This document shows, in pieces, positions 29,286 through 64,000 of a DNA stretch of 64,000 bases; position 1 is the first letter of the stretch; each line of letters opens with the position of its first letter. Made by a program: the position numbers and the translations under genes. Source of the stretch: Hemileia vastatrix (lineage: Eukaryota; Basidiomycota; Pucciniomycetes; Pucciniales; Zaghouaniaceae). Below the pieces are notes generated by a model. It ran no database searches and had not been told where the DNA came from. It worked only from the letters and a program-made list of their open reading frames with translations. The stretch lies in contig JASXTE010000008.1 in assembly GCA_030280995.1 (NCBI GenBank), forward strand, positions 8,499,712 through 8,563,711. The letters are read 5' to 3'.

Positions 29286-29293
29286 ACAGTAAA

Positions 29294-30185: not shown

Positions 30186-30186
30186 A

Positions 30187-35315: not shown

Positions 35316-35330
35316 TAAGAACTAAATAGT

Positions 35331-35732: not shown

Positions 35733-35807
35733 TCCCTCTGTTGAATATCCTGGTGCATCATCAATTTTTGATGGAAACTCAGTGGTATCAACAGGTATTT
35801 CTGGATT

Positions 35808-37175: not shown

Positions 37176-37179
37176 ATTC

Positions 37180-38885: not shown

Positions 38886-38890
38886 CAAAA
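38886..38890. repeat. Target-site duplication CAAAA (right)
   Basis: Identical to 30335-30339 and directly adjacent to the LTR end (CTGACA). Confidence 0.9.
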
Positions 38891-41165: not shown

Positions 41166-41450
41166 TGAAATTTGTTCAAGTATGTAGGAAATGTTTATTG
41201 GGGCTTGACAATTAAGAAGTCTTAATTGTTGAGGATTAAGAGAAGTGAGATATAATGAAGAATAGCATTCACTTGGCAAACCCCTGGGGACAGGAAAAGA
41301 ATTAAAGTGAGTCTTGATTTAGGATATCAAATTTAATCTATCATATAATGCCAAGTTCTTAAGTATTTCTCCTGAATAAGAGGAAGATTCTCGGATTTGA
41401 ATGTGTTTCTGGTCGAGATTTCGTGCAAGTCTTGAGAATTCTTCAGATCT

Positions 41451-42345
41451 TCATGGCAATAAAATACGCTTAAAATAACCTTCATCATAAATTTTGGTGT
41501 CTAAGCAACATTTGAAGTTTTTGAAAAGATTCTCATAGGTTTCACCACTTGGAAGTTGTTTAAGAAGGTGAGTTCGGTTAAAAGAATTCTGAAAAAGATT
41601 GTCAAATTTATATAAGCTTGTGTAAAAAAAAAAGATAAAAATATTAGTTCTTACTTTCTTTTTCATTTTATATTTATACTTTCTTATTTTAACTATTTCA
41701 CGGAAACTATCAGAATCTTTTACGAGTCGTAATTTATCAGCATAACCTATAAACCAGCGGTGAAAAACACCCATTTGATTTAGGTAGGAAATATAAGTAG
41801 AGTCCATTGAATAAGAAACCAAATAATTATTTTCCAAAGCTTTATCCCAGTGCTTAATGATAATTTTTGTTAAAACTTGATTCCACTTGTGAAACCAATC
41901 AAGATTACATGAAAACTTTTTCCAGGAAAGTTGCATTGATGAAGAAAGTGGATAAAAGCATTGTGGAATATAGCAGGTATTTTTTCAGAAACACAGTAAT
42001 TTCGTTCAGGATATGGCAAATTAATATCAATTTTGAGAGAGCTTATATTGAACAGTGAAAACCTATGTAGTTGTTCTTCGGTGGGGTTCAGCTTCCATTC
42101 ATTGGACTGAGGTGAAATATTCAAAAGCACACAACAGAAATTTTGAATAGACCTGAAAAAATTAGAAGTTGATTGAGGGAGTATCTCATTGAATCTTTTA
42201 TTTAGTACACGGGTATTAGAAGGTATTTTTCCCTGAGGAAAATAAGAACAACTAGAGCTCCTCATATACATTATGAAAAGCAAAATGAACAAAAATATAA
42301 AATTTTGAAAGGATATGGCAACAAAAACACTACTATAATAAATTT
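41451..42345 (-). CDS. Unrecognised gene, possibly secreted or membrane-anchored
   Basis: Two overlapping frames appear to be one gene with a frame break near 41870-41936. The upstream part (to 42292 and beyond) begins with a hydrophobic stretch (FIFLFILLFIMYM) then RSSSCSYFPQGKIP, like a signal peptide or anchor. No ATG lies before the hydrophobic stretch in this frame, so a further exon may be missing. Then come FNEILPQSTSNFF and PYPERNYCVSEKIPAIFHN. The downstream part has NYLVSYSMDSTYISYLNQMG and a likely intron (donor GTAAGAACTAATA at about 41656, acceptor ACACAAG about 41620), ending GYFKRILLP at 41451. No known domain recognised. Cysteines are few. It could be a rust-type secreted protein gene, which is inference only. 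Confidence 0.35.
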
Positions 42346-43338
42346 TTTATTTTGAAAATAATTAATAATGAAGAGTTGAGTGGACGGACAGATGAGCTTT
42401 CTCATGAATATCTTTCACTATAAAATATGGATATCTATTTATGTTCATAATTAATTCAAAAGGAAATAACTCTGCTGTAATAGAAAATTAGTGCATGATA
42501 AACAGGTAAAAACATAATGCAGAATCATTTTGATTTTCCAACTTATTTTGATAATATTTTAATGCAAATAATGACCTTATTTGAGCTTGTTGATTGTGCT
42601 GACAAACTTATTTTAAAAATTTATATTGACACCTTATTAGTATTTATATATTTTATTTACCAACATTACTTGGAAACCATACCAATTTTTCAGAGTTTGG
42701 AATAAGCAACTTAATGTAAAAATTCTGTTTTTGGATTCTGGAAGCTTTACTTTGATGACCTCTTAGATTTGAAAATTTTAAAATAATATATTTTGTTGAA
42801 GAAATATTTATTTTTCAGACTGTAATTCTATATTGTGAGAAATAAATATTATAAATTTTTTTATATCTTATAGTGATTATTAGTGAAAACCTTTCTATTG
42901 CTTGGCAGAATTTTATTAATGCAGGTGATTGCAGAAAAAAAAATGGCAACACTTAAATAACTTTATTATTATAAATTAAATGGTATTATTTTGATTCAAG
43001 TTATATCATGGTTTCTCCTATATTCAAAAATGTGATCAATTTGTATTCTCTTATAGTATTATTCTTTGTGCAAAATAAGCTGTTTGATAAACATGTATGC
43101 AACATTGTAAAATGTAGCAAGTCTGAAACATTTTGCTGATGTACAGTATGGATGCCTACTTAATTCATGGTTGATCTGCATGAAACAAACATTCAAAGAA
43201 ATCCATGGTAACCAACTTGTTGATAAACTTCTTGAGATGTAAAAATTAGCTTATTTTAGTAAGTGCTTCACAATAAATAAAGAGTTCTTTCAATTGCTAC
43301 CATCCAGTAACATATATCTTATATCCAGAAGTTTTAAA
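42346..43338. other. AT-rich DNA without recognisable genes
   Basis: One open frame (42517-42705) is hydrophobic and of chance type. The probable left end of Tnp2 element copy 2 should lie in this stretch, but I found no convincing terminal inverted repeat. Confidence 0.45.
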
Positions 43339-43857
43339 ATGCCACCATTTTTTCGCTTTTGTAAATGTGAAGAGCTTGGATGCTTATCAAGAAAGCATCA
43401 GACCTCATTGGGAAGCTTTGAAGTTGGTGTAGCTTTCAAAACATCTCAGTCGTACTCCAAACATGAAGAGGAAAGAAATCACAAAGCACAGATGGTTGGT
43501 ACATCCAGCACTTCACCTAACTTAGGATCCAACATCCAAGATCTTGTAAGACATCAATATTTGGTAAATAAAGAGAAATTATGTTTCAATTAATCTCTAT
43601 TTTTTTTCTTTGCTTAGGGGCAGCCTGTTTTGGAAACAATTAAATCTCTACCACGTTCAAAAAATTTGAATTTGGAGGAGCTTTAAAGCCAAAAGATAAT
43701 GTGGCAAGCATCAAAACTTTCTTTTATCCATAATTTAAGCAAAGAAGGTTGTGCTGAATTTTTGCATGATGAAGTCAACAAACTCAAACTTCTTAGTGAC
43801 CTAGGTAAACTAGATGCTAGCAGAATCATCAGCCTGATTCCCCTTTCTATAGAGACA

Positions 43858-44619
43858 GTTTTTGTCAGCCAGCTGATTTGAAAGTATTAGTAAATATGAT
43901 AATAAAAACTAAGTAAAGGATATCAGTAACTTACAGAGGATTGTTCAGTAGTGACAATGCCCAAAAGAGGGCGTGAACCAATGTCCCAATTACCCTCCAA
44001 AGTGGGAAAATCCTGGAGTGGGAATAAATTTTAATCATTAAAATTAGTATATATTTCTTTCTCACCTGACGTGGGGTTTTCCCTGGGAAAATAAATCACA
44101 TGAGATGTATTGTTCTTTTCTTTTCTATCTTTTTATTTCTTTTTTCTCTGGAAACTTTATATTTGTTTCTCTAGTCATTTTTAGTCTCTTTATTTCCACG
44201 TCTTTGTTCTTTCTCTTTTGCCCCTGATGGGAATTATTTTATGTATCTAGTCTTTCTTGGGTCTATATAAGGGGGGGAAGATTTGGTGGAAATATCATTC
44301 CTTTTTACACACATTTATCCAGTTGCCAACGTTGCCATCTTCTTTATTACTTTATAAGGTGTTACATTTACATCCTCTTATTAGTTATAATTTAAAAAGG
44401 CCTAAGTTCAAATATTTAAGTACCGTGTTGTAAGGGTTTCAACAAATAAAATAAAATCTTCTGATTAAATTCCCCATTACTTTAGAAGTCACTACCTCTC
44501 AAATAACTATTACGCTCTAAATTCTCTATTGATTAGTTATATTACCCTTATATTAGCTAATATCTTGTTCAGGGTTACCATCATATTACTATACCTCTAG
44601 TCCACACCCTGACAGTTTT
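43858..44619. mobile_element. Solo LTR with GTTTT target-site duplication
   Basis: The LTR is 43863-44614 (752 bp), beginning TGTCAGCCAGCTG and ending CACCCTGACA. It is flanked on both sides by GTTTT (43858-43862 and 44615-44619). TGTCAGCC is also how the LTR of the 30.3-38.9 kb element starts on its own strand, so a related Ty3/Gypsy family is likely. A TATA box candidate, TCTATATAAGGG, is at 44262-44273. Removing the LTR and one GTTTT leaves the transposase text continuous (SIETVF then SQLQLNP). It formed by recombination between two LTRs of a full insertion. Confidence 0.88.
44262..44273 (+). promoter_or_regulatory. TATA box of the solo LTR
   Basis: TCTATATAAGGG followed by a G-run, about 400 bp into the 752-bp LTR, where an LTR promoter would be expected. 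It implies transcription left to right if still active, into the right half of the Tnp2 gene. Confidence 0.45.
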
Positions 44620-47430
44620 TAGTCAATTGCAACTCAATCCATTATTTGTCACCAAGACATGCTGTGCTAAGTGCTTGGCTCTTTATGAGTATATCCCCAA
44701 ACACCAACCATCGATCTTATCTTGTACTCAACCTTTTTATTCATCCTCAAAGCGCTATTTGAAAGATTTAGGACAGAGAGAAGAGACTGTCAATTGTGAT
44801 GAAAATTTTTATTTGGCTAAGTACAAACAAGAAGAAGCAATCTACCATCCTCGTAAAACATTTCATCACAACAGTTTGGTTGAATGGCTTTCAGGAAAGT
44901 TTAAACTAATCAAATTTGAGACACTGATTGAGAAAAAAAATGATTTTATAGAAAAAATGGAAAGGGATGTCATGAAAGATGTATATGATGGTTTTGTATG
45001 GAAAAACTTTCCAGATATTTCAATGACTCAAAATAGAAGTGTCGATGGATATACAAAAACACAAGGTAATTTAATTTTTAGTTTATATGTTGACTGGTTT
45101 ATGCCAGGTGGCAATCGTATTGGAGGTCATCAGAAATCTGTGGGTAATATCTTGTTGGTGTGTATGAACTTGCCTACAGAAGATTGATACAAAACCAAAA
45201 ATCTATTTTTGTATGCTATTATTCCCAGTCCAACTGAGCCAACGAGTTAAAAAATAAATCATCTTCTGAGGCCTCTTTTCAATGAACTAAAGACTCTATG
45301 GGATGGCATATTTATTTAAAAAACACCTCACTATCCACAAGACCAAAAAATAAGGGCTGCATTATTCTCTTTAATAGGAGACATTCCAGAGATGCGAAAG
45401 ATTGCTGGTTTTGCAAGTCACTCAGCCACTAAGTTCTGCTCTGTCTTTCATATTTCAAAAGATGAAATTCGTGAGCATCAATTCAAAAAAATTTCCTTAC
45501 GTACTCATGAGGATCATATGCACTGGGCAGAGAAGTGGAAAAAGTGTCAGTCACATTGGGAGCAGGTATCTATTGTTAGGAGTCATGGGTTTTGATGGAG
45601 TGAGCTAAATAACCTTGTATATTGGCAACCTTTGGAATATTGCTCAATTGACTTGATGCATTCACACATGCTTGGAAATCTTATAGATCACAGTCTAACT
45701 TTTTATCTAATACGAAATGCCCCAATTGACCTAGAAAAAAAGCTGACAAAGGAAAAAAATTGGCATGTAAGAAGAGAAGATGATGATGCACGTTCTGATA
45801 TATTTCTAAATAAGCAATATAAAAAACATAGAAGCAGCTTAATCAGCACTGATGTCAATAATATTGAACCAGTGGGATGGCAAAAATGACTACGATATAC
45901 AAGTACAATGAGACGGTCACAAACATATCTTAGAATGGATAGTGGAGGAGCTGAATCGGAAGGATCAAACAGCCGGAAAATGTCATCAAGTTCTGAACAT
46001 CACTTTCAAACCTTAGAGTTTGGCTCCGAACATGCTTCTAAAAATGGAAGTCAAAATTCAACCTATAACTTAAGGCAAATAAGTATCAGTATATCCAAAA
46101 GTGAAAGATCTAATTCATCTATTGAGACTATTAGAATTAAGGAACATAAAAAGAAGGGCAAAGAGAAAGAAAGCAAAAGAACTAGGAATTCACAATTGTC
46201 AGCTACTGAGCTAGAGTCAGTGTGGAATGTGATAAAGCAAACAAAAAAACCTTCCTGGATTTCATGAGTGCCAAAACAAGTAGGATCTAAAAATTCAGGT
46301 TCCCTCAAAGCTGCGGAGTGGCATGTACTTTATACTTTTTACTTTCCTTTGTCACATATCCCCCTTTGGGTAGAAAAATTAAATCAAGCCGAGACATCTG
46401 TGACGTCAGACCACAAACCTAGTGAATATTATCTTCTCAAATCACTCACCACTTTAAGTTCAATTACCAACTTTTTGACTTTAAAAAATGTGTCTGCCAA
46501 TGAAGTTGATGAATTAAAACAACTGCTATTGGAGTATCGTAACTGCTTGGAAGAAGGTTGGAAAAATATCAGCTTTAAGCCAAATCTTCATTTCACTCAA
46601 CATTTTCCAGAAATGATTAAACATTTTGGTCCACCTGTAGGTATGGCTACTTGGGCTGCTGAAAGAGTTAATGGTATATTATCGGAAATTCCAAACAATC
46701 ATCATCCAGGTATTTAGTTTGGTAATTGGGTTCTTAAAAATGCAAAAGAGCTAATTTTTTTATTGAACATAGAAGAAATACCACGGACCATGCTCAAGCA
46801 CTGGCATCAGAGGTCTAGTGTATTAGAACTAGGTGAAGCTGAAGATGATGCTCAGTATGGATCTAATATTAAAAAAATTGAGTACGATACAAAAAAAGAC
46901 ATTTCCATTTAACTGAGGCATTATTTACAAAATGGGTAAGGGCACGCTTAAGAAAAGAGACATCTAAAAAGGCTTTGTTACCATCAGAGAAGGTAGGAGA
47001 CAGGGTAGTTGAAAATATAGCAAGAATATTGGTCCATGGAAAGCGTTATACAACTCATTACCAGAATCCTGGGAATTCTACCATTGAATTCTACTTTGGA
47101 AAAGATAGCCAGTTTGGGCTTATTGATCAGCTTTTTAGTTCAAAGTACAATAATGTAAAATTCTATCTAATTGTTAGTCCATTTAAAGATCTTATACCAG
47201 AAGATACAAAAAAGGATCCCTATGAGGAATTTCCACAAGTGCATTACCGTTTAGTAAGAGTAGAAAAAGCAACACAAATTGTGATAAATTAAGATTCAAT
47301 TATTGGACATGCCGCCACTTTACAGCACCAAAGGGGAATGTTTGAAATAAAGTACAATGTTATCACTGCTGTTGGACTTCAGACACTAGTAAGTAAAAAA
47401 TTAAACAACATGAGCATTTTATTTTCATTA

Positions 47431-47877
47431 ATATGGTTGAAATTATTTAGGATTGGTAAGAATTTGGAGGATTTGGGAAGCTTGTAATAGATCTTTGGAA
47501 CAGCTAGATGCAAGATTAATAAATAAAACTTTTTGAGATTTTGCCTAAATGTTTAAGAAAAAAATAACAAGGGCATTCATTACGGTTTAGAAACCCTGCT
47601 ATTAAGAGTGACATTTTATTGTAAATTTAATTCCAACTAAAAGAAATTCAATGTACTATACAAAGTCTACCTATACTTGAAAAATATTATAAATAGTTCA
47701 GAACCAGAGTTGAAAAATCTAAGGACCATATTTTCAAGCCAATAAAACTGAGTTTTCCAATAATTTTTTCGCTTGAATATTTTATCATTAAACTCACAAT
47801 TAAAATGTATAACTAATTTCTCTTTAATATTATCTTGTCTATATTCTGAAAGTTAATATTTTTTTATAAAGCACAGA
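47431..47877. other. Intergenic spacer inside Tnp2 element copy 2
   Basis: AT-rich spacer matching in position the 11961-12402 spacer of copy 1. It contains AAATATTATAAATAGTTCAG (47681-47700), comparable to ACTATAAATAGTTTGAAC at 12219. The shared TATAAATAGTT is a good candidate for the accessory gene's promoter. Confidence 0.4.
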
Positions 47878-49557
47878 ATGTCTAATACTGGTGATGCCAT
47901 ACAGGTTGATCCTCCATTAGAAAGTAATGTTGGAGTGCAAAATAATTCTCCCCCTCAAAATCCTAGAATGCCTCCATCGGATCCTGCTCCCCCTGAAAGA
48001 CCTAGTGAAAATCCAGGTAAACCCTAACCTCCTCCTCAGTCTTCATCAGATCCCCAAATTTGATCAACTGATTGCTCTTCTAATATCACAAATACAGATG
48101 GTCAATCCACACCTGGTAATTATCAGCAGGAAGCAGGAAGTGTAGGTAATGATTGGGCTAGTATGTTGTTGTTTCATTTTCTTGGAAGCTGTGGGGGATC
48201 CACTTCTACTAACCCAGAAGCCAGTACCAGTGGACCTGGTGAGTAAACTTTTTCAACATGCTTTTATGTTTTAAAATAGGTTTACCAATTATTATTTTCA
48301 AAAATTTTCAGTTAATCCCTCTCTTATAATTCAAGCTACTGATCAGCGCAGAATACTTGATGCTGAGTCACTTCAAAATGACAGAAACTTGCGAATGGTT
48401 AGAAGCATAGTTACGAGGTGTGATGTACCAAGGAGCTCAGATTCTATTAACCAAAATATCTATCACTTTTTGAAGTTCTGTCTTGGTGGAACCATTAATG
48501 TATCTGAGTTTCCTATAGGCCCAACAAATGAAGAAATTACAGATTGGAAAAATTGGCATGAGTACAAGCTATTGACAATTGAAACAGCATTAAAACAGGT
48601 TCAAAACACACCGCAGGCAACTTCAGCTGCTGATCGTCAATTTTTTTTAACAAATACTGCTATATTCTTACGTTCCAAAATTCATCTACCAACTTTTATT
48701 TCAACACCTGAGCCCCGAGGACTAAAGGGAGGAGCTGCTGTACCGATCTCTGTAAAACAACATTTGGAACAAGAGCTTCAAGAGAAAGTATTTTGTGGAC
48801 TCGCTTTTGATTGACACTGTCAAAATTTTTCTGAGTCACTATGGAATCAAGTAATGGAGAGTGTAGTATCAGACCATTGTACTAAGTGGCTCTCATCATT
48901 GAAAAATATTGATTCAGAAAAACTCAGGTTTACACCAATCATTGTCAAGCAATGGGTGGTCAACAAGGGAAAGGAGATTCAAAAGGTGGCTGGTCAAAAC
49001 TGTGAGGTGATTGAGGCAAGTAGAAAGGAAAAGAGATCAAGAGCACGGATAAAGCGTTATCAAACAAAGGTATTTATTCAAAGCATAATAACTAAATAAA
49101 GTCTATTACTAATTTGATTTGATTTTAGATTTCAAAAAACCGCTACGACATTGCAAGAAAAAAGTGCTTTGATCAGCCAGGCTTTGTAGCACTTTTTCAT
49201 GATACAAGTCTCATGTCTGATTTAGAAGAAGCCCCACCCAATCCAGAAGAGAATCATCCTAAATGAGTAGTTCCTGGATGGTGAAATCCAAAACTCGATG
49301 AAATTTTAGATTTAATGGACAACTTGACTAAAAAGACAGCCCATTCAAATGTTGAAAAGGCTTCAAAGAAGAAACTTTATGATCGCCCAACTAAAAAGAC
49401 AGCTTCAACAGATGGTATCTTGAATGTGCCCAAATTTTTACCAAAAAACTGCTATTCACCTGGATATTTAGCAAATTTTTTGGTTAATGAGAGGAAGTTA
49501 CTTGACATTGGAGAAGATATAGATTTCGCCAAAGTTAATGAAGCACAAGATTGAGCA
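47878..49557 (+). pseudogene. Tnp2-element accessory protein, copy 2
   Basis: It starts at ATG 47878 (MSNTGDAIQVDPPLES), proline-rich like copy 1. It has an intron at 48239-48311 (GTGAGT...TTTCAG), then CDVPRSSDSINQNIYHF and EPRGLKGGAAVPISVKQHL. An in-frame TGA at 48812 is followed by NFSESLWNQVMESVV and WVVNKGKEIQKVAG. A 49-bp intron (49080-49128; GTATTT...TTTTAG) comes next, then KNRYDIARKKCFDQPG, and the C-terminus is 49315-49557 (LPKNCYSPGYLANFL). Other stops are near 48027, 48061 and 49264. The full product would be about 500 residues. No known domain seen. Strong parallel conservation with 12403-13517 shows it is a genuine component of this transposon family. Confidence 0.65.
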
Positions 49558-50300
49558 GCAGCACCTTAAATTTTTTACCCCACTGTTAACCATGTATATA
49601 GAGTGATAGTAATCATAATTTAAATATAACATTATTATTCTTTCTTATAAAAAATTACAATTGATGTATAAGATAAACGAGAGCAAAAGAATTAACGATT
49701 TTAAAATTATTGAGGATAGAAAAACAGATATATATTTTTGTAATACTTTAAGACATGATAAACGTTTTGATTAAATAAATGTGAAATTTTCTTATGCACA
49801 ATAAATTAACTTGAAATAAATTAAATTGAATCTGTTCTCAAATACTTACGACAAGATCAAATTAAAGCCTAAAACAAGAATAGAATTAGACTCTAAATTT
49901 CAATTCAAAATACCTGTTTTTCAATAATTATAATTCCTTTTTTTTGGCTTAAGGCCACCAATGATTAGTATAAAAATGCACAGGTGAAAAAATTTATGAA
50001 ATTGAACAACATCCCTCACCAAAAAAGAAACATCATTAAAGGCACTCAATAATCCATTACCATAGTTAATAAACAAAATATATACAAAAAATTAAAGCAT
50101 TCAACCGATGGGAATTCATTTACACAAGGATCTTAAGAAATTTTCTTTTTAAACTTCACTTTTTGCAACAATAATTAAAAATTATTAATCATTAAAAACC
50201 AAAAAATCATCAATTTATATTTGGTTTTCATGCCTTAAAAAAAAGAGGCTTTAATAACATGTAATTGATAAACATACTTCAGTATAATTTAAGTATTGTG
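49558..50300. other. AT-rich DNA between Tnp2 copy 2 and the palindrome array
   Basis: No gene seen. The right end of the transposon should be here, but no inverted match to a left end was found. Confidence 0.4.
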
Positions 50301-50304
50301 CTAT

Positions 50305-53300
50305 GTATCCAGTACAAGTTTGGCCGAACTTGTGCTGGACACTTTGGCCAAGACCAGTGACTAAAAATTGCAAGGAAAACAATAAAAAATGGTCCATATA
50401 ATTAAGATAATTGATTGCATCAAATTGTTTTTTGGTAAAAGTGTCCAGCACAAGTTCGGCCGAACTTATGCTGGACACTTTTCCAATTTAGTGTTGGTAA
50501 GGTGTATGTTTTTTTAAGAGAAGTGAGGTTTTGCTCATAAAAGTGTCCAGCACAAGTTCGGCCGAACTTGTGCTGGACACTTTTACCAAAAAAAAAAATG
50601 ATTCCATCAAATATCTTCATTTTCTAGCCTAATTTTTTTTAATTTCCTTGAAGTAATAAGTTACTGTCCATGACCAAAGTGTCCAGCACAAATACGGCCG
50701 AACTTGTGCTGGACACTTTTATAAGGAACACCTCACTTCTCTCAATAAAACATGCACCTTACCAAATTCAAATTGGAAAAGTGTCCAGAATAAGTTCGGC
50801 CGAACTTGTGCTGGAGACTCTGGCCAAGACAAGTGACTAAAAATTAAAAGGAAAACCAAAAAAAAATGGCCCATGTAATTAAGATAATTGATGGCATCAA
50901 ATTGTTTTTTGGTAAATATGTCCAGCACAAGTTCGGCCCAACTTATGCTGTACACTTTTATAATTTGAAGTTGGTAAGTTGTATTTTTTTTTTAAGAGAA
51001 GTGAGATGTTCCTCATAAAAGTGTCCAGCACAACTTCGGCCAAACTTGTGCTGGACACTTTTACCAAAAAAAAAATTGATGCCATCAAATATCTTCATTT
51101 TCTATCCTAATTTTTTTTAATTTTCTTGAAGTAATTAGTTACTGTCCATGACCAAAGTTTCCAGAACAAGTTTGGCCGAACCTGTGATGGACACTTTTAT
51201 AAGGAACACCTCACTTCTCTTAATAGACAATGCACCTTACCAACTTCAAATTGGAAGTGTCCAGCAAAAATTCGGCCGAACTTGTGCTGGACACTTTGTC
51301 CAAGACCAGTGACTAAAAATTGCAATGAAAACCAAAAATCAATAGGCTATAAAATGAAGTTAATTGATGGCATCAAATTTTATTTTTGGTAAATATGTCC
51401 AGCACAAGTTCAGCCGAACTTATGCTGGAAACTTTTATAATTTGAAGTTGGTAAAGTGTATGTTTTTTTAAGAGAAGTAAGATGTTCCTCATAAAAGTGT
51501 CCAGCACAAGTTCGGCCAAACTTTTGCTGGTCACTTTTACCAAAAAAAAAAATTGATGCCATCAAATATGTTCATGTTATAGCCTAATTTTTTTTAATTT
51601 CCTTGAAGTAATAAGTTACTGTCCATGACCAAAGTGTCCAGAACAAGTTTGGCCAAACTCATGCTGGACACTTTTATAAGGAAAACCTCACTTCTCTTAT
51701 AAAAACATGCACCTTACCAACTTAAAATTAAAAAAGTGTCCAGCATAAGTTTGGCCAAACTTGTGCTGGACACTTTGGTGATGGACAGTAACTTATTACT
51801 TCAAGGAAATTAAAAAAAATTAGGCTATAACATGAACATATTTGATGGCATAAATTTTTTTTTTTGGTAAAAGTGACCAGCACAAGTTCGGCCGAACTTG
51901 TGCTGGACACTTTTATGAGGAACATCTCACTTCTCTTAAAAAAACATACACTTTACTAACTTCAAATTATAAAAGTGTCAAGCATAAGTTTGGCCAAACT
52001 TGTGCTGGACATATTTACCAAAAAAAAATTTGATGCCATCAATTAACTTCCTTATATAGCCTATTGATTTTTGGTTTTCCTTGCAATTTTTAGTCATTTT
52101 TCTTGGCCAGAGTGTCCAGCACAAGTACGGCAAAACTTATGCTGGACACTTTTCCAATTTGAAGTTGGTAAGGTGTATGTTTTTTTAAGATAAGTGAGGT
52201 TTTCCTTGTATACGTTTCCAGCACAAGTTTGGCCAAACTTGTGCTGGACACTTTGGTCATGGACAGTAACTAATTACTTCAAGGAAATTTAAAAAAATTA
52301 GGCTAGAAAATGAAGATATTCAATGGCATCAATTTATTTTTGTAAAAGCGTCCAGCATAAGCTTGGCCAAACTTGTGCTGGACACTTTGGCCATGAACAG
52401 TGACTAAAAATTGCAAGGATAACCAGTAAAAATAGCCCATATAATGAAGATAATTGATGCTATCTAATGTCTTCGGTAAAAGTGTCCAGCACAAGTTTGG
52501 CCAAACTTGTGCTGGACACTTTTATAAGGAAAAACTCACTACTCTTAAAAAAACATGCAACTTACCAACTTCAAATTACAAAAGTGTCCAGCATAAGCTT
52601 GGCTGAACTTGGGCTGGACACTTTGGTCATGGACAGTAACTTATTACTTCAAGGAAAATAAAAAAAAATTGGCTAGAAAATGAAGATATTTTATGGCATC
52701 AATTTTTTTTTTTTGGTAAAAGTGTCCAGCAAAAGTTTGGCTGAACTTGTGCTGGACACTTTTATGAGGAACACCTCACTTCTCTTAAAAAAACATACAC
52801 CTTACCAACTTCAAATTGGAAAAGTGTCCAGCATAAGTTCGGCCGAACTTGTGCTGGACACTTTTACCAAAAAAAATATTGATGCCATCAATTAACTTCC
52901 TTTTATAGTCTATTCATTTTTGGTTTTCCTTGAAATTTTTAGTCGCTGGTCTTGGCCAAAGTGTCCAGCATAAGTTTGGCCGAACTTGTACTGGACACTT
53001 TTCCAATTTGAATTTGGTAAGGTGCATGTTTTTTTAAGAGAAGTGAGGTGTTCCTCATAAAAGTGTCCAGCACAAGTTTGGCCGAACTTGTGCTGGACAC
53101 TTTTACCAAAGACATTAGATAGCATCAATTATCTTCATTATATGGGCTATGTTTTTTTTGGTTTTCCTTGCAATTTTTAGTCACTGTTCTTGGCTAAAGT
53201 GTCCAGCACAAGTTCAGCCAAACTTATGCAGGATAATTTTCTAATTTGAAGTTGGTAAGGTGCATGTTTTTTTAAGAGAAGTGAGGTTTTCCTCATAAAA

Positions 53301-53338
53301 GTGTCCAGCACAAGTTTGGCTGAACTAGTGCTTGAAAC
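50305..53338. repeat. Array of 26 palindromes with three spacer types in both orientations
   Basis: The 38-bp palindrome (arm GTGTCCAGCACAAGTTCGG) is the same as in the 5.9-9.0 kb satellite. Starts: 50305, 50441, 50543, 50679, 50781, 50918, 51021, 51157, 51257, 51395, 51497, 51634, 51736, 51873, 51975, 52112, 52214, 52348, 52482, 52584, 52722, 52824, 52961, 53063, 53199, 53301. The copy at 50543 is perfect. Spacers are A (about 64 bp, with CACTTCTCTTAAAAAAACAT), B (about 98 bp, with GTGACTAAAAATTGCAAGG) and C (about 98 bp, with GAAGTAATAAGTTACTGTCC). Order, with + as B reads first: B+ A- C+ A+, B+ A- C+ A+, B+ A- C+ A+, C- A+ B- A- C-, B+ A+, C- A+ B- A-, B- A-. The first three blocks are 476, 476 and 479 bp. 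Open frames here encode only the palindrome read through and are not genes. Confidence 0.9.
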
Positions 53339-54700
53339 TTTACTTAAAACAGTTTGATGGATTCATTTGTCTACATATTCCTTACCATTGTCTTTTGGTA
53401 AAGAGGGAAACCTTTAGCTATTGGTAGTTGTTTTGAGTATATTATGAGTAGTTGATATTTCCATTTTAAGGTAAAAGAGTACAATATTTTTTGTGATTAC
53501 CAGTAATTTATTTTCTTCAATATTTCTAAGATATTGGTTATAATTTTTATAACACCTATTCCTAATATTCCTCTTTGATTAGATTATTTTTTTAGTCCTG
53601 ATTTAAAGGTTCTTACTATTTTATCAACCAAGCTTTACATCAATGTAAAAAATACCCTGATTAATCCTGCTATATTTTTTTTGACTGTTCCTATTCAATA
53701 ATAGCTCAAGTTAGAAACATATATCCATTATCTATTTTCTTTTTCTACTTAGTTATCTCAGTGGAAAATTTTCATCAATTACTATTGAATGATGTTTAAC
53801 GTACATAACCTTGTAAAAATCTGTAAAATACTTTAAAAAAATTGTGACTTTGGTACTTGGTTATTGGATTTTATATGGCAATAATTTCAAATGATTTTAT
53901 ACTTTATTCATATGCTAAGATTCTTAAGTGTTTCTATTTCAGATTTATTATATCAATTTAACTTTAACCAAGTTTAGACTAGGTTTGTGCCAGGGGGTGA
54001 CAGCGCAGCCCAAACGAGCTCCTATCATAGAATAAATTGATTTTTTTTAATAATTTTATATAATACTATTTAGTGTTATCTTTTTTTATCCCCTTTTTTT
54101 AAATAATCTTTTTCCTTTGTTTTTGTCCCCTATTTTTTATAACACATAAAGATGCCTCAATTTCCAATAATAGATCCCTTGGTCATATTGCATGATGTCG
54201 ATATTTACAAATTAATTTAAATATTTAAATTAGTTAAACTTATATTCTCAACTATTTACCCTTTGAGATTATCAAGTTGTAAATTGGACATTTTCTTTGT
54301 TTGTCCTACTTTTAAGCCCCCAATGTTTATGTCTAGTTACTTCTCTTTTACTATTAACCCCATTATTATCATCAGACTATTTTACAATATGCTTGCTAGC
54401 TTGATGCCATTGTAAAAGAACCCCTATCAAAAACCTGCTTCTGGTAATATATAAACCCTCTTGTTTTGTACCACATTTCTCAATTTGTTTATTTCTCTCA
54501 ATTTTACTACTATTATCTTTTGGTTATCACATTTATCTGTGTTAGTACAGCTTTCAAATACAAATAGCAATATATATTTTTTATCTCTTTATTACCTTGA
54601 TATAAGAATTTTTCATTTTTTTCAAGTAATAAGTCATTAAAATGCCTTGTGATAAACAGACACCTCCTTTATGTAAGATCTATTGCTTTATCTCTTATAT
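53339..54700. other. AT-rich DNA without recognisable genes
   Basis: No gene seen. CCAAGTTTAGACTAGG at 53969-53984 resembles AAGTTTAGACCAAGTC at 9164-9179, which also lies just after a palindrome array. A short GC-richer phrase (GGGGGTGACAGCGCAGCCC) follows. Weak, but it may be a shared flank of both arrays. Confidence 0.35.
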
Positions 54701-54749
54701 CTTCTGAGACTAACTTTTCTTTTCCATTAATATATTTGATATATTAGCA

Positions 54750-57031
54750 CGAAGTAGTTATTTGACAAAATCTCATCAGCATCATCAATTCGAATCCTTC
54801 AAACTCAAGAAAAAACCACCACTAGGCATGTCTCCAAACCCCCCTTCTCTTGCCAATGAAAGGACTGAAATTATCCAATCTCAATATGGAAAGATACTTG
54901 AATTTACTAAAGGCAAAACTGAAGAACTATTGTCAACTCTTAGCGAGAAGCCTTTGCCATCTTATATTTCGAATGCCTACAACAATGTGCTTGAATACAT
55001 TGATGACCTAGAAAAATGTTAGTAATTATTTTATATCAAATTCTTTAAACTCAGAAGGATAAATTATCGACACTTTTTCTTTAAAACCTATTTAAATTTG
55101 GCTTATGAAAAAGGTATCATTACTCATGATGATGTCATTATCATCAAAGATGATGATGATAATGAAATACCTGACGCTGAAGGCTATGCATCAACATCTC
55201 GAGGGGGAGATAAGACTATTCTTCGACGTTCAAAAAGAATGAGACTTTCTAGGGGCTCTAGTTTTGTCAGTGCTACTAAAACTCCTCCTGAAAAGGATTC
55301 CTCTTACTCAGCATCTCAAAAATCTAAACAAACTAGGCAAAATGTGTCAAAAGGGTATGTCATTTCTTTCATGAGTAATATATCAATCAATTTTATATTA
55401 GTTTTTAAAGCTATCTCCAAATTTTTTACTTTCTTATTTATTATTTCTTGTCTTTTTCTTATCTTTTAATACAGCTCTAAAAACGACAATCACTCCAAAG
55501 TGTCAACTAATAGCAAATCTTGCTCTAATGAAGAAGAAGTAGAAGAATAAGATGATGATGAAGTTTCAAAATATGAAGCTTCTCTAACTCAAAAAGATGA
55601 TGAAGCTACTTCTTCTGATGAGGTTGAGAAAACACACAATGAAGAAATCAATCCACCTAGCCAGCCACACAAAAATACTTCAAGTTCAAATAAACAGCTT
55701 ATAGTTGCCGTATCTTCAAAATCTAAAATTGAAATTCCCAAAATCGCACGGTCTCTATCATCATCAATAAAAATTTCTAATAACTCCCTTCCCTATACTC
55801 CAAAAATGATTGGAAAATCAAAATTACAGAAGCAAATATCTGAAATTCATTGATTTTTTGAAGGTAGAATCAATGGTCAAAAGGTACTAAGGGCATGGCC
55901 AGAAATCAATCAGTTATTTGAAATCCGTTTGTCTGCTTCTCTTGAAAAGCCACACAAAATTTCTCTCAAATTCAATTTTCTATGGATGAAATCTGCTCAT
56001 GACAAAATGCTTACAAAAATTAATGAACTCTGTATGTATCACTTACTTGAAGTTGGTTAATTTATTTTATGATAACTAATTGTTTTGTTATTTTTTTAGC
56101 TTTGGATTTTCTTAATTTTGACACTTGGCAGATCTGAGTGGTCAATAATTTGAACTTTGAAAATTTGGAAAATTTTTGTAACTCTGAAGAACCAAACTCA
56201 ATTAATCTTTCTCCGTTTAAGAAGACTGATCACCCTGAATCATCAATGATACACATTCTATCAAGACTGGTTAGCCCAAGTGCTCACCAGCGTTCTTTTT
56301 GGGCATCCCTTGTCACATCATCTCTTTATCTTGCTTCTCAAGAGTTTACCCTTCCTGCTGAATAATTCGACTTAAATCCAGATTTTCCTATTGAACATGC
56401 CCTACATATTCTAGCCTGCTTTACACATCTGAAAAGCAAAGTTCCTGATACATTGGACAGCTCAACATCACAGCTAATTGCTGCAAATTTTTCAATCACT
56501 CCCCTGTGCCAATTTAGAAACATAATAATCGATGTCATGATTTCAATAATTATTTTAAAATCTAGAGAGGCTGCTGCAAATATAACTCAAGCTGAAAGCA
56601 AGAAACGACGATGTTCAAGGAATAAAAGAAAACAACAGATATGCAGCAGTTTGATGAGTCTCATAATGATTCTATTCAGAAGATGAATCAAGAATATGCG
56701 CACCATAAATATCAATCATTTACTTTTTACTTGGTTGATGGTGTTTGTGGGTTATTTCTTTCCTCACAGGACCACCGGCTTGTGTCAGCTTCAGACTGTT
56801 TAGAATTCATAACACAACTTGGCCTCCTTAGAAAATACTGTGATAATAATAATTCGGGTGGTGAAAAATCTGGAAAAACCTTAATTTTTATATCTTTAAT
56901 ATTATCGAACCCTTAATAGATAATTCTGGGCCTATGCCACTTAATTTTAATACTCCCACCATGAGCCATCTTTCTAAAGCAATGGCAGCTGATTTTCTTG
57001 ATTATTTGAATCTTATTAAGCCAAATTCTTA
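54750..57031 (+). pseudogene. Unrecognised multi-exon gene remnant with basic/acidic nuclear-type regions
   Basis: Exon-like pieces in order: 54762-55022 (KKKPPLGMSPNPPSLANERT, then ILEFTKGKTEELLSTL); 55098-55357 (DDVIIIKDDDDNEIPDAEGY and LRRSKRMRLSRGSS, like a nuclear localisation signal); an intron with GTATGT at 55360 and ACAG at 55475; 55476-56030 (SEIH, then INGQKVLRAWPEINQLF, acidic and serine-rich); 56100-56700 (HILSRLVSPSAHQRSFW, and KKRRCSRNKRKQQ); and 56641-56916. In-frame stops occur at about 55547, 55851, 56135 and 56363. Composition suggests a nuclear, possibly DNA-binding protein. I do not recognise the family. It could be another transposon-carried gene. Confidence 0.4.
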
Positions 57032-59525
57032 ATTTTTCTCTATTGTTGACGTAATTAATACATAATCCTACTTCATGTAAATATATACTTTATCCTATTG
57101 CTACATTTTTTGTGTAACTCAAATTATTTATTTATGTGTGATTTATTACTGAATCTGAATAAAGATGCTTAAACTATCAATAAATATTGTTGTATAAATT
57201 TCTTACACCTTTTTGCTATTCATTAAATATTATTGCAATAATCATAACTCAAAATCATGATGGATCAAAAATTTGTAAAAAAACTGAGAATACATTATAA
57301 GTCATTTTTCGCATAACACTATATATTTCTTCAAGATGGCAATACATCTTAGCATTTGTTGCAAATTTTAAGATAATCATTACAAAAAATTGAAACAGTT
57401 TTCTATCAATACTTTTCAGCATGTTTAAAAGTTAAAAATATTAAGTGTAATGAATTTTTGCTCACAATTCATCAAAGCTTTTTCTTAAGTAGACTTTTCT
57501 TAATCTAATTTCTATAATTTCTAGGTGCATAGTTATCTTAATTATACTAAGTATTCTCTATGAAAAACTCCTGGAAATAATATTAAATTCATTTAATAAT
57601 AGTAACATATATATGTACCATGATAAAATAATGTCTAGACATTTAAATAATGAGAAGCCATCATTTTGGTATGAAATCATATTAAAGTGTCTTTGAAAAA
57701 CTAGTTAAATTTAAAAAATATCTTTTTATTAGTGTCAATTATTTTGAAAAACAATATTTACGCTACATTTTGATGATCTATAATTTAGCTTGCTGTATTT
57801 TGATTCATATTTTATATTGATTATTTTTTACACTTACATATTCATCTATAGATATCAAGTTTTGTTCAATAATTTGGTAAAAAAGATATTTAATTCTTTC
57901 TATGAAAGCAAAATAATAAAAGAAAGCAACTAGGGTACTCCTTATTAAGAACTTAAAAATATTATTTTTATAAATATTAAAACAAACCCTTTTTAGATTG
58001 CCATCCTTCTTGGTCATCCTTAAATTTCAATAATAAGTTATTGAAATGTTATTTTTCTTCTAAAATTTCATATGAATCAAATTCTACTTACATCTACCTT
58101 AATAGATCAAGTTCAATAAAAATGTATCTACAATATTTTTCTCGGTTTTTAAGATTCATTCAACTCCAAGAAAAAAGAAATATTCTTCCACAACTCTTAA
58201 AATTAATTCAATGGATAAATATTCAAACACTTTAAAATAAATTTCAATTTGATTGTGTTATATTTATCTTAAAAAATATTAAGGTCAACTCTCTGGCAAA
58301 AGTAAAAGCACTTTTATAATTATTGATATTTTATTATAATATAATAAAATTCACTTAAAAATTATGTAGTAGTTTCTATTTTACATACTTTGTTTTATGA
58401 ATTTAAAAAAAAATTCAATCAGATATATAGAAATATCATCATATAATTCAGCTTTTGGAATTCTGAACCTTAATTAAAGATAGATGATGAAGGCTAAGTC
58501 AAGATATACAAGGAAATTGAAATTCATATTAATTAAATATTCCTCTTCTAAAAGGTAAATTTTAAAATTAGAATTAATTTTTATTAAAGATATAAATTGA
58601 TTGATAGAGTCTTCATTATCAAGATATCTCATTTCCTTTTATTGATTATTTCACTTCTACTTTTGAAGTTATATGCTTTACTAAAATATAATTATGTGAT
58701 GAAAAATATTCAATTTATCAAAAAAAAAAATCATAAGTCACAGTAGTGTACAAATTTCAGTAAATTTAAGATTGAATATGCCACTAAATTATTTCGAGTT
58801 AGATATGAAAGTGAATAATGAATGACTCAAAGAAAAAAATTAATATTTAATTGTCCATTAATTTTTTTTTTTACTTAAATAAGAATAGAATAATACATGG
58901 TTTTACTTTTGTTATTTATAAGAAATAACTTATTTCAAAAATTAACAAATTTTTAATATTTTTAAAAACAATATTAATAGTACAGATCTATTTATATTGA
59001 TGCATATGATCTTTTAGGACAGAAACTAAAAATATTGTATATTTTTAGTTTCTGTTTGCAATAATTAAGCAAGTTAAAAAGCTATATTTTGTTTCTTATA
59101 TTTTAATATATTATATTTTATTTTACATATAGCAATGATAATTTTTTATTGTGATATGATTTTTCAATTTTTACCTCCATTTTTTTTCATACTTTTATTT
59201 TTTTAGGTTTTTCACTAGATTATACATAATCATCAGTTTCATAAAAAGGTTTTATAGACATGTGTTTATATATATCATTCTACCACTAAACTAAAACTAT
59301 ACCTGTAAAATAAAATCACATTTTTACCTATCACTGCTTAATGGTCTTTTCCTTTTTTTTATTAACATGTATATCAGAATCTATTTCTGTATTTAATTTT
59401 ATAATATCTTTAGTAAAATTAAATATATAGTAATTCACTAACTTTTTTTTTGTTAAATCAGTCTTTTCATTGTACTTAGAAAGTTTCATGATAAGAAATT
59501 TACATCTTTCTAACTCTTCATTTAT
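57032..59525. other. AT-rich DNA without recognisable genes
   Basis: About 2.5 kb with no acceptable gene. Open frames at 57805-58017 and 58041-58235 are short, with composition-driven residues. One inverted pair, AAACTAAAAATATTGTATAT then TTTTTAGTTT (59026-59050), is a local hairpin. Confidence 0.5.
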
Positions 59526-59531
59526 ATTTAA

Positions 59532-60565
59532 TTACTCAGAAATATCTATTTCATACTCTTGGAGTTTTTTAAATGTATTGAAAAGTCTTGTACTAACTTG
59601 AATAGAAAAGCCAAGGCGAGTGAATCCCCCAATTTCATAACATCTTGAAGTGAAATGATTAAGAAGGTTTGCTGGCCATAGAATTGCTGTGATGCCATTA
59701 GTGGCCTCCATGTCTACTTTGTAAGCTATTTCAGGAAAATAAAGCTCTCCACCTTTTTGACATCGTTGATTTGAGTCATAAGATTGATGAAGAGAATTTT
59801 TCTCAGTGTCTTTAGGCATGAAAAGTCCAAATGTATACTCGCTACTGTCTGAGTCACAGTGAGGACTATTTGAAAACCCGTTTCTATTTGAGCCTTTTTT
59901 CCAAGTAACATTTCCAGAAAATGGTTCAATTTCTTGATCATCAACATTTTCTCCAAACCCAGGAATCCTGAGCTTTTGACAGAGCTTTACTGCTTCTTGA
60001 TACTTAACATTAGATATATTTTGATAAAAAAATTTAAAGAATAACTCTATTCTCTTCATGCAACAATCATACTCTGCCAAATCAAAGGGCTTAGAAGCAT
60101 ATTTACCTATAAAAGTAATTAAAATAATGATAGATTAAAAAGTATTCATAAATAAAACTATATAATACTTACAAATTAAATGATCTTCCTATCTAAACAC
60201 CTACCACCAACAAACATATTACCAAATCCACCACCATTTTTATGAGCTGTATTTTGTAAAACTCCATTTTCACAATACAAAAAGTCTTTGATGCACTGAA
60301 TTGTTGCTTCAAGAATGTTTAATTGAATGAGATCTTCAATAGAAAATTTTTTCACTATAACACTTGGAATTGAGGAGCGGATTGGATGGAAAATATAACA
60401 GCTAGAATTTGAAGTAAAATACTGTTCTGGATTAACTAAATTTTTTACAAAACTCCTAGAAAAATATTTTGACCTCTTTCCATCTGTCTCAATACCGTAA
60501 TTTTCAACAATAAGTAATGCATTCTTGATGTTTTTTGCATGCTTTTTGTTTGATTTTTTTCCTCA
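59532..60565 (-). CDS. TET/JBP-like 2OG-Fe(II) oxygenase, copy 2 (catalytic residues kept)
   Basis: Two exons on the minus strand. The first (about 60565-60205) includes ALLIVENYGIETDGKRSKYF, CYIFHPIRSSIPSVIVKKF and NGGGFGNMFVGG. A 98-bp intron (60204-60107; GTAGGT...TTATAG) follows. The second exon reads KYASKPFDLAEYDCCMKR and ends at 59532. Catalytic core: HxD in NSPHCDSDSSEYTFGLF (about 59850), GGELYFPEIAYKVDME, distal H in LLNHFTS, and the 2-oxoglutarate-binding R in GFTRLGFSI. These are the four signatures of Tet-like oxygenases, which oxidise 5-methylcytosine or thymine in DNA. In basidiomycetes such genes are multicopy and often linked to transposons. An in-frame stop just upstream of the first exon means the true 5' end is unknown. 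Compare the dead copy at 880-1664. Confidence 0.65.
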
Positions 60566-61830
60566 GTGGTGATTTTTCTTTATAAACAAACTTTGTGAAG
60601 CCTGCATCTTGTAGAGTAGTGGATAAGAAATTAATTTTATTCAAAAATAAATAAATAAAAGTGAAAAAGAATGCAATTGTTAAAATTAACACCTCCAAAA
60701 ATAATCATTATATATTCTTAATAATAAATAAAAAATCATATGCAACGTGCATGTAGAAAACATGAGTATTAGCTGCATTTAAAATATTAATCAAGTATTT
60801 GGTATTAAATCTTCATTTAATTTCTTACAAGTATAGTATTCTGCCGTATGCATTGGGCATAGGAGATTCAACTATACCCTAAACATAAACAATTAAATGT
60901 GAAGATTTGATCCAACGCCCAATTATTACAATAAATACAGCAATAATACATAAGTATGTGTTGATTCTATATTTAATTTTTCTCCATATATCAATAATAT
61001 ATCAAACCACCAGATATCCATAATTTATAATGTTGAAAGGTATAGTTTCCTTAAACAAGAATCAACTATACCTCTACCATTAATAGAATTACAGGAGGCC
61101 ATTACAATAAATTATTGATATGTAGAAAAAAATTGATCCCATACACATGTGGATACTATGATATTTTATTTTATTTTATTATTTAATATATAATGACTGA
61201 GAATAATAAAAACTTTAAAAATGAAATAGTGAAAAAAGATATTCTTACTTGAAATTTAAAAAAAAAATCCTTGGGTAGAAGTTGATTGATCGATAAATGG
61301 ACAACTAATCTGTTGATTTAAATTTTTAGGAATAGATTATTGTAGAAAAATAATTATTATTTTTATTGAATGAAAAAAATGAAAAGAGAAAGACAAACCA
61401 ATATAAAATTTGGATGCTAACCAAAAATTAGCTTTTTGATTATACTATGACAAGTTAGAGATCAAGCTGCCAAGAGTTAAAAACAATCATCAGTTCTTTT
61501 TTTTATTTTTTAAAGAGATTTAAAAGGAGACTAAAAGACCAACAATCCAAGTTAGTAATCTGTAAATAAGTTACTTTGGTGGCAAACCTAATGATTGAGA
61601 AAAATGGATTCCCTAAAAGTTGAACATATATTTTTAAAGTGAAATTAATATTTTTACTTAAGAAACAAGTATAAGAGTCAAACCAAAATAAAAAACTCTT
61701 AAGTGAAACAGATGGATAGCTAATTATTTTAATAACCTGTCTCTTGTAAGTGGAAGAGGAGAAGTAGAAAATTATGAAAATTTGCTTACAGTTATGCGTA
61801 TAGAAACACGCAAATTACTGAAGCCGGTTG
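60566..61830. other. AT-rich DNA without recognisable genes
   Basis: No gene seen. A short phrase pair, AGGAGATTCAACTATACCCT (60861) and AAGAATCAACTATACCTC (61057), is weakly repeated about 200 bp apart. The small minus-strand frame at 60504-60698 overlaps the oxygenase start and has no support. Confidence 0.4.
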
Positions 61831-61939
61831 CAAGGCATGCAGTGACTTGCATAAGGTGTATAGGCAACAGGTTTTTACACAGCAATATATTGTACAAATG
61901 AAGAAAGAAAATTATCACATTCTTTTAATTAAAACTTAC

Positions 61940-62070
61940 ATGTTGTTTTTACAGCTAGGGTTTCACAATGTATACTTTGAGGAACCAAAGCCTCAGCTTG
62001 TTTTACACGGTGTAGAGTAGACTCCTACAGTCACCTTGCTGCAGGCAGAATCCAAGGGAGTTGGAAAAAC
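61940..62070 (-). mobile_element. LTR relic related to the 12-kb Ty3/Gypsy element
   Basis: Read on the minus strand, 62062-62019 gives GATTCTGCCTGCAGCAAGGT then GACTGTAGGAGTCTAC. This matches the end of the LTR at 15270-15300 (GATTCTGCTTACAGCAAGGC then GACTGTAAGAGTTTACC) with few changes. The rest of the LTR is not recognisable and no matching primer site follows. Probably a diverged family member or a relic. Confidence 0.45.
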
Positions 62071-62740
62071 AAAAAGAAATCCCTGTCCCTCTAAGTAAAC
62101 GTAAGATTCAATTAACTAAGCTTGAATATCTACTTGAAGAGTTGGATAAGTTGAAAATCTGAGAGAAAGACTTTGAAAGTGTTGAAAACCTATAATATAG
62201 AAAAAAATAAGTGCAATAAATGATTACACCCCCAAAACAAATACCTTATACCAGATTACACTGATACAAGTCACAGCAAATACTTATAACAAGCCGCAAC
62301 ACTTGCCCCAGAGACTGAAAAGTACAGTAAAGTACCCCAGAAACTACCCTTGGGATGAACTGTTCAAAGGTGCCTTATTAAAGGTCTGCCCCAGATTTGC
62401 CCAGTTTCACACCAAAATTAAAGATTTTTCTTTATTATATTTTTATTTTATAAAATTTATAAGAAAAGAAATAAATTTGAGTCACTCAGGATGAGAGCTA
62501 TCCAATGGTAACCTATATGTTGATATTTTTTTATTATAATTGTTGTTATATGCTAAATATTGTTAATTATCAAACAAGACCCTTGTTATGGAAACTAAAA
62601 GACAAAAAACATGTAGAAGACTAAGATTCCCTCCCCTCCATATGATTCTCCTGCTCCAGACCTTTCCAACAATGCCCTACATGCATATGATCAAAAATAA
62701 ACTATTGATCTAGTAAGCATAATAACTTTCTAACCAAATT
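62071..62740. other. Non-coding DNA
   Basis: No supportable gene. The short frame 62303-62494 has no domain. Composition changes from AT-rich to more balanced towards the minisatellite. Confidence 0.4.
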
Positions 62741-62990
62741 TTGCCACAATAGCCAAACTTTTAGCACAGTGACCAAACTTTGCACAGTGACCAAACTTTG
62801 CACTGGTGATAAGACTTTTCTACAGTGACGAAACTTTGCCACAGTGCCCAGAATTTTCTGCAGTGACCAAACTTTGCCACAGTGCCTAGACTTTTCTGAA
62901 GTGACTAAACTTTGCCACAGTGCCCAGAATTTTTGCACCAATGACCAAACTTTGCCAAAATGACCAACTTTTCCACAGTGACTTCGCTTT
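62741..62990. repeat. Minisatellite with CCAAACTTTGCCACAGTG units
   Basis: About eight imperfect units built on CAGTGACCAAACTTTGCCA, many alternating with a CAGTGCCCAGAATTTTCTG variant, giving a composite period of about 37 and 50 bp. Boundaries are gradual. The minus-strand frame 62702-63061 (HCGKVGHFGKVWSL type) is this repeat translated and not a gene. Confidence 0.75.
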
Positions 62991-63159
62991 TGCACCGGAA
63001 AATCACCAGAGCGCACTGTAGTGCACCGGAAAAAAATGGCTACTCCATGAGCACACTGCATCCACCAAAAATCACCAAGAGAGCCCTAGAAAATCCAGTA
63101 AAACCAATACCCAATCCATGAAACCATCAAATAACAATAGGAATACCAACATATATCCA

Positions 63160-63240
63160 TTCCAAAACACCTTAAATCCTCCAAAAAATCACCATAAATC
63201 CTCTAAAAATCACCATAAATCCACCCAAAAAAAATCCAGT
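63160..63240. repeat. Short tandem repeat AAAAATCACCATAAATCC
   Basis: Two good copies and one partial copy of an ~22-bp unit (63184, 63206, 63228 region). Related single phrases (AAAATCACCA) occur at 62998 and 63067. Confidence 0.5.
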
Positions 63241-63756
63241 TAACTCCCTTCAACCAAATTAACACCTGCTAACACCATTATTTTCTTCCAACCAAGGCCC
63301 AATCAAATTTTCACTTAAGTAACCTACCCAGATTTGGAATGCCACAACGGATGCAATTAATATTTATTTTCACATATTTTTCAAATTCAATCCAGTTATC
63401 CATATCATTTGTTCACATAAGGTTGGAAAACTAACCTTTAGCTGTTATGGACACCTTTTTTATCAATTATTATTTTTTTTGCCACTAAGTTGACATTTGG
63501 CTACAAAAGTGTTAAAAACCAAGCGTATATTTCTGAAAAACAATATGGACACAAAATCAGTATTTTGATATTTTAAACTTGTTAAAACTGGGTATATATG
63601 TTTTGCCATTTAAAAATATCCAATACCACTTTTTCTAGCTTTAATTTTTTATTATGTACATATACATTTCACACTGTCAAAAAATTAATGACAAATGGCA
63701 TGTAAAAGAGTAGAGCAAATTTCAGTATCTCATCTCATCTTATTTCTTATTAATTC

Positions 63757-63971
63757 AAACCAGCCAGTCTCCCCCTGGCTGGTAGTTTATTTCCTATAGT
63801 AGCCAATGTTGCTTAAAGCAACATCGGCTGCTCAAATCTCACGTTAAAACCTCCCAGCCAGTGTTATCTGGCTGGGAGATGAACAAAATATTATTGCAAC
63901 CAAAGTCGCTACAAGCGACTTTCGTTGCTTTAAAAAAAGACTTGCAGCCAGTTTTATACTGGCTGAAAGTC
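63757..63971. repeat. Second hairpin array (five hairpins, may continue past the window)
   Basis: Hairpins: 63758-63788 (ACCAGCCAG/CTGGCTGGT), 63801-63829 (AGCC-ATGTTGCT/AGCAACAT-GGCT, one mismatch), 63851-63878 (CTCCCAGCCAG/CTGGCTGGGAG, perfect 11 bp, loop TGTTAT), 63896-63928 (GCAAC-AAAGTCGCT/AGCGACTTT-GTTGC, one mismatch) and 63939-63971 (GACTT..CAGCCAG/CTGGCTG..AAGTC). The same two stem kinds as in the 26.2-26.9 kb array alternate here: CAGCCAG stems and (A)AAGTCGCT or TTGCT stems. The third and fourth hairpins closely match 26386-26423 and 26338-26372. Confidence 0.85.
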
Positions 63972-64000
63972 ATTAATATATAATAAAAAAAGTGAGAAAA

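Follow-up and report, generated by a model that had tools for sequence, protein, structure and literature searches.

The palindrome array at positions 50305..53338 of the window, the whole 64,000-nucleotide stretch of Hemileia vastatrix DNA that we analysed, is probably (at roughly 70%) a component of a CACTA/EnSpm transposon, in which putative protein-binding palindromes double as passive recombination points and from which one arrangement was spread by transposition. On this evidence the array is real and regular, but it is part of a transposon and not the system of inversion cassettes that the original prediction proposed.

Typing of palindromes and spacers found 26 palindromes of 38 bp and 25 spacers in both orientations across 50305..53338, a feature to which no strand is assigned. 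This confirmed the predicted number of palindromes and the three spacer types (A, B and C), each present in both orientations, as well as their order: B+A-C+A+ three times, then C-A+B-A-C- (also as predicted after spacer 12) and B+A+C-A+B-A-B-A-. The palindromes are near-identical, with 0-7 mismatches to a single 38-bp consensus (n = 26), but they had been called perfect, which only 2 of the 26 are; the remaining 24 have 1-6 mismatched pairs. Similarly, the higher-order repeat B+A-C+A+ in spacers 1-12 is perfect by spacer type but 87-88% identical by sequence. Spacer A measures ~64 bp, and B and C ~98 bp. B and C resemble each other in opposite orientation (B+ versus C- similarity 73-78%), so that there are really two spacer families, a long one of ~98 bp and a short one of ~64 bp, and over spacers 1-12 orientation alternates within each of them. 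The array contains no ORFs of at least 100 aa. Within the palindrome, variability is among the highest at the CpG sites of the TCGGCCGA centre (positions 17/18 and 21/22) and at 11/28. Variability at these two CpG sites is what methylation decay would give, and the surrounding element bears a TET-like gene.

Judged by its sequence, the array belongs to the interior of a large, predicted TET-carrying CACTA/EnSpm DNA transposon that is present in many copies. This element occupies 29282..64000 on the plus strand and continues to 67578 (L059:3578), 3.6 kb past the window. Its CAC..GTG inverted-repeat termini, at 29282 and L059:3578, read CACCAC...GTGGTG with AAT on either side. A tnp2-type transposase gene region lies upstream of the array (44611..48814, plus strand), with ~74% DNA identity to the PF02992-bearing region 9208-11919 of a related element, here family 1 (74.6% over 1158 bp and 73.9% over 1372 bp); the ORFs of the element's own tnp2 region had no accepted Pfam match. 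The element also holds a SNF2-related ORF (39100..39825, plus strand, PF00176) and a TET-like 2OG-Fe(II) oxygenase (59532..60134, minus strand, PF20515, E-value 1.9e-20). Together with LTR-retroelement polymerase domains, the tnp2 transposase, the SNF2-related ORF and the TET-like dioxygenase are among the products of the window ORFs. This copy has a nested LTR retroelement at 30337..38886 (minus strand), for which L065 and L066 show the empty site; without it, the element is close to 30 kb long. The array is internal: 14 kb separate it from the right end of the element and 21 kb, the nested retroelement included, from the left end.

The ends of the element recur in other copies. The exact base of the right tip is shared by the window copy, C103 and C34, and that of the left tip by the C34, C631 and L073 copies. 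A 3-bp target site duplication is exact in one of the three flank pairs compared, that of the window copy (AAT/AAT); the flanks of C631 (TCT/TAT) and of L073/L074 (AAT/AGT), the latter possibly not one element, agree at two of three bases each. When tips were sought for further target duplications, L071, L075 and L076 had other sequence and no tip, and L080 had no tip in the bases examined. Across the genome (747.6 Mb in 791 contigs), the terminal pattern with at most three mismatches occurs 1775 times in forward and 1761 times in reverse orientation, with none for the control. A single giant element spanning 3932-67578, in which family 1 and the array-carrying element would be merged, was rejected because the first base of both C34 and C631 corresponds to ~29281 and because the AAT flanks fit 29282/67578.

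Several smaller features accompany these elements. A second palindrome, centred on TGCTAGCA, is found in element tips ~25 bp from the end (window 2624 and 29282, L059:3578 and L005:1198). Its arms vary between ends and families and remain largely self-complementary, which suggests a putative second symmetric binding site. At L012:3153 a CACTA-type tip lies within an array, so that one element seems to have landed in the palindrome array of another. The element also contains a 19-bp minisatellite (window 62733-62982), of which other element copies have additional partial copies at about this position. The window contains two nested LTR retroelements, at 14198-25465 and at 30337-38886, with LTRs that are 96-97% identical (96% in the latter). 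The first of these has an extra LTR copy alongside (13515-14194) and short GGACTCCGTTT-type minisatellites in its LTRs.

The family 1 CACTA element (3932..13515, plus strand) carries the same palindrome between spacers that are different and longer (~570 bp). Its left tip is at 3932, its palindromes span 4667-9002, regular units of ~607 bp start at 5924 and its tnp2 gene (PF02992, E-value 2.2e-14) starts at 9208; its right end was sought and not found. Counted from the left tip, a decayed palindrome comes first, at 735 bp, and the regular ones begin at 1992 bp. A search with 6114-9111 gave 3884 candidates, of which 40 were scored, and 37 of these span the whole query at 95-100%, the window's own included. 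Strongly decayed palindromes with 8-14 mismatches at the left end of family 1 (window 4667-5450) are spaced partly at 100-101 and 137-bp steps, like those of the array at 50305-53338. The sequences look as if both arrays shared an ancestor. Genome-wide, a 34-bp core of the palindrome with at most three mismatches is present at 21,507 places, and a reversed-pattern control at none.

Two comparisons bear on whether the palindromes are under selection. Pairwise comparison of the six regular units of family 1 gives a difference of 9.1% for the palindromes and 29.3% for the remainder of the unit; the edge between them is sharp, and the lowest 38-column window outside the palindrome differs by 15.8%. 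Conversely, among copies of the array at 50305-53338 the palindromes diverge by 8-10% and the spacers by 4-11% (first five positions, 23 of 29 copies). Since palindromes and spacers diverge alike, selection on the palindromes is invisible in this family, which is what would be expected of role-less, selfish tandem DNA that rides in the element as a neutral satellite. We consider such a satellite unlikely, given that the palindromes alone are sharply conserved in family 1 and that the same palindrome is common to two families even though their tnp2 gene regions are only ~74% identical. We read the equal divergence as decay after insertion that masks selection on active copies. Against selection for a TNPA-like role, the array is internal, whereas TNPA sites are subterminal.

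The arrangement of the array was compared among dispersed copies, for which we took the 30 loci that best match the first 476 bp of the window array, a set chosen by similarity and not at random. Copy numbers are lower bounds, as 40 of 1941 candidates were scored in the array search, and 18 of 3894 and 40 of 3884 in two further searches. L018 was dropped as the same array as L006, leaving a typed set of 29 arrays, namely that of the window (L001) and 28 others. The flank upstream of the array aligns at 92-95% in all 29 non-window loci (L006 and L018 being one array), although at L010 in two pieces only, of 242 and 83 bp. Eight copies were extended rightward; seven of them remain homologous for at least 1.8 kb beyond the array, and L015 is unmatched there. 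The downstream anchor is absent in L012, L015 and L020 and poor in L009, and the array of L012 is interrupted by another element. A tree of the upstream flanks (25 of 29 copies) is star-like and its terminal branches are mostly 2-4%, a shape like that left by a burst of transposition. L010 and L028 are on long branches, in the case of L010 because most of the upstream flank is absent.

With the longest regular array (L006, 26 spacers) as the reference order, 493 of 505 spacers in the 29 arrays fit in both order and orientation, while random orientations average 343. For this test five untypable spacers were dropped from 510 and typed fragments of odd length were kept. By type, 23 of the 29 arrays are subsequences of the L006 order that need deletions only; the window array is without one A spacer present in L006. 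The copies diverge mostly through block deletions, with tandem duplications in three (L002, L007 and L010). L019, L023 and L030 each have a single out-of-order spacer, which in L030 is an ill-typed 197-bp fragment; L019 and L023 are candidate inversions. The spacer subtype at the same position switches between groups of copies, which suggests exchange or conversion within arrays.

One array contains a clear case of a block inversion, as we read it. Over 300 bp, spacers 8-10 of L029 share 97.3% identity with the inverted block 12-14 of L026, compared with 91.9% for the best direct-orientation A-B-A- triplet of any other array. The next two spacers of L029 are 94-95.5% identical to the inverted neighbours, and a direct L026 pair is equally good (94%). 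An inverted duplication followed by loss of the source is the alternative. L029 passes the type test, which can therefore hide inversions, and our count of inversions is a lower bound.

The reversed stretch of the window array has a different origin. Its spacers 13-15 are an inverted duplicate of spacers 11-9, mirrored about spacer 12. The left arm of this mirror, at 51018..51679 on the plus strand, is 91.1% identical over 664 bp to the right arm at 51728..52388 on the minus strand, with the axis at ~51703, inside spacer 12. In the window, the closest relatives of spacers 13, 14 and 15 are 11, 10 and 9, at divergences of 2%, 3% and 8%, respectively. In the position consensus across copies these three pairs score 0.98, 0.97 and 0.94, although A14 ties between A10 and A6, and spacer 15 is closer to inverted B5 in L019, L022 and L023. 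A second mirrored pair, also spacer-centred, joins spacers 18-19 with 26-25 (scores 0.97 and 0.94), but the positions in between give it no support. Inversion in place was rejected as the source of the reversed stretch, since such a flip leaves no sister pairs like 13-15 and 11-9. From the anatomy of the array, a switch between two palindromes that flank one spacer would produce a spacer-centred mirror, while a plain hairpin turn at a single palindrome would produce a palindrome-centred one. The inversion of segments between palindromes in the original prediction thus holds for one clear block, in L029, and not for the reversed stretch of the window.

Mirror arms of 664 bp at 91% could, if transcribed, fold on themselves into hairpin or double-stranded RNA that feeds or decoys RNA silencing. 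Single palindromes also fold strongly (the 46-nt consensus palindrome folded as DNA gives -23.7 kcal/mol, z -10.2). We nevertheless consider an RNA source rather improbable. No Rfam family reached its gathering score in the whole 64-kb window, and over the array the 58 matches with E-values up to 1, mostly miRNA-type hairpins, were all under that score; furthermore, the inter-unit repeats listed for family 1 are direct.

The breakpoints were traced by a marker within the palindromes. Where a half-palindrome adjoins the 3' end of spacer A, its position 11 is T, in 120 of 125 cases for A+ and in 102 of 118 for A-; beside other spacer ends it is mostly C. Departures are largest at the 5' end of A in A+, with T in 24 of 125, and at the 5' end of B in B-, with T in 17 of 55. 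Summed over 18 junction types, the expected pair of marks is present in 405 of 487 palindromes, by a rule that was discovered and scored with the same data; the other 52 of 539 palindromes, at odd spacers or single junctions, are outside this count. At B-/A- junctions the marker is on the opposite arm in 14 of 51 palindromes, and at C+/A+ junctions there is an extra marker in 21 of 57. Marks at positions 11 and 28 are mutually exclusive, both occurring in only 4 of 539 palindromes. Because the marker follows A in both orientations, half-palindromes flip with their spacer, which places the exchange points between positions 11 and 28; the argument rests on few independent flips, as many spacers are of common descent. 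Abnormal lengths in 21 of 510 spacers indicate that some breakpoints fall in spacers. Every change of orientation had been predicted to fall at a palindrome, which agrees with the breaks inside palindromes that the marker reveals. Correction of one arm by the other (hairpin repair) received no support. Mismatched pairs between arms number 2.42 within the same palindrome versus 2.25 for arms drawn at random; since arms of the same palindrome are no more alike than random arms, such correction is not what keeps the palindromes symmetric.

That half-palindromes travel with their spacer would also fit tandem MITE-like units, in which a spacer with inverted half-palindrome ends was once mobile and inserted beside its like. 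Such a step is unneeded for either spacer mirrors or block deletions, and we regard it as very improbable. We give hardly more credence, in fact slightly less, to programmed inversion, in which an enzyme acting on the palindrome would flip spacers in the manner of a shufflon. Exchange points within the palindrome and the inverted block between palindromes in L029 are what such an enzyme would leave, and inversions concealed by the type test could add to them. However, the orientation is kept in nearly all spacers of the 29 arrays, and copies vary chiefly by deletion and duplication. Moreover, a Pfam recombinase match was found in none of the 19 scanned ORFs of at least 100 aa from the part of the element within the window (nested LTR retroelement excluded), a scan that intron-split genes could escape; the part beyond the window has no ORF of 100 aa. 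The freely flipping, shufflon-like cassettes of the original prediction are therefore not supported, in view of the shared order and orientation and the lack of a recombinase domain in these ORFs. Orientations at other loci are largely shared by the dispersed copies, which is close to the outcome that the prediction itself had set against an inversion system.

We return to the reading of the array as a transposon component, for which mirror duplication and exchange within palindromes are both observed. The unit would be a spacer with two flanking half-palindromes, and palindromes would form where the halves of neighbours abut. By analogy with the TNPA sites of En/Spm, the palindromes may bind a symmetric (dimeric) protein encoded by the element, and this binding may keep them alike. 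Since they are near-identical and self-complementary, two palindromes can align with each other directly or in inverted orientation. The direct case would lead to deletions and tandem duplications, whereas the inverted one, or template switching from one palindrome to another, would lead to inversions and spacer-centred mirror duplications. General recombination, presumably through a repair pathway and without a dedicated enzyme, could in this way have built the mixed orientations in an ancestral element, and transposition would afterwards have carried one arrangement through the genome.

It is tempting, though doubtful, to see in this 38-bp site with more than 20,000 copies a putative platform on which an EnSpm-encoded complex and the TET-like dioxygenase keep the transposon unmethylated. 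If the palindromes are a binding platform, their near lack of polarity, as a by-product, lets deletion, duplication and inversion between sites be compared. The dispersed copies are a natural record of recombination between such nearly polarity-free sites, which in the 29 arrays is mostly loss and tandem gain and seldom visible inversion.

Palindromes usually destabilise DNA; here, a transposon has kept and multiplied one despite this instability. In bacterial shufflons of the plasmid R64 type, segments between repeats occur in both orientations, as do the segments between palindromes in our array. Unlike a shufflon, the array has no coding cassettes, no recombinase was found and the arrangement is largely kept among copies. 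High-copy palindromes are also known from bacteria, where BIMEs are palindromes of the REP kind. REP palindromes are described as reaching very high copy number and as linked to a transposase (PMC8266576). Unlike REP and BIME sequences, the palindromes examined here sit in full-size eukaryotic elements of the CACTA type.

Transposons with inverted ends are reported to make up 10-28% of rust genomes (PMC12210899). The closest relatives of our element are the TET+ EnSpm elements of rust fungi, described with 5'-CAC..GTG-3' tips, a 3-bp target duplication, an EnSpm-type transposase and a TET/JBP dioxygenase (Kojima 2025, PMC12730594). Like these, the element studied here has CAC..GTG tips and, between its ends, a tnp2-type transposase region and a TET-like gene. 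No palindrome array was found described in that paper: in its main text 'palindrom' appears once, on another matter, and 'tandem repeat' and 'snf2' are absent. In the titles and abstract openings of the literature found on palindromic or subterminal repeats in rust, CACTA and other DNA transposons, the array is likewise undescribed. With it, TET-carrying EnSpm elements would have a cis-acting part that is absent from the descriptions found.

The nearest functional parallel is with the subterminal repeats of plant CACTA elements, which are regarded as binding sites of an element-encoded, TNPA-type protein (PMC2613891). In the account of the soybean element Tgmt* given there, 17-bp subterminal motifs are arranged in direct and inverted orientation and pair into stem-loops, 12 at the right border and two at the left. 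Our array similarly consists of many direct and inverted copies of a self-pairing motif. The motifs of Tgmt* lie within 159 and 732 bp of the ends, whereas the 38-bp palindromes form a 3-kb array deep inside the element. Being internal, the array falls outside the strict definition of a subterminal repeat, although we think that it works in the same way as the TNPA-type sites.
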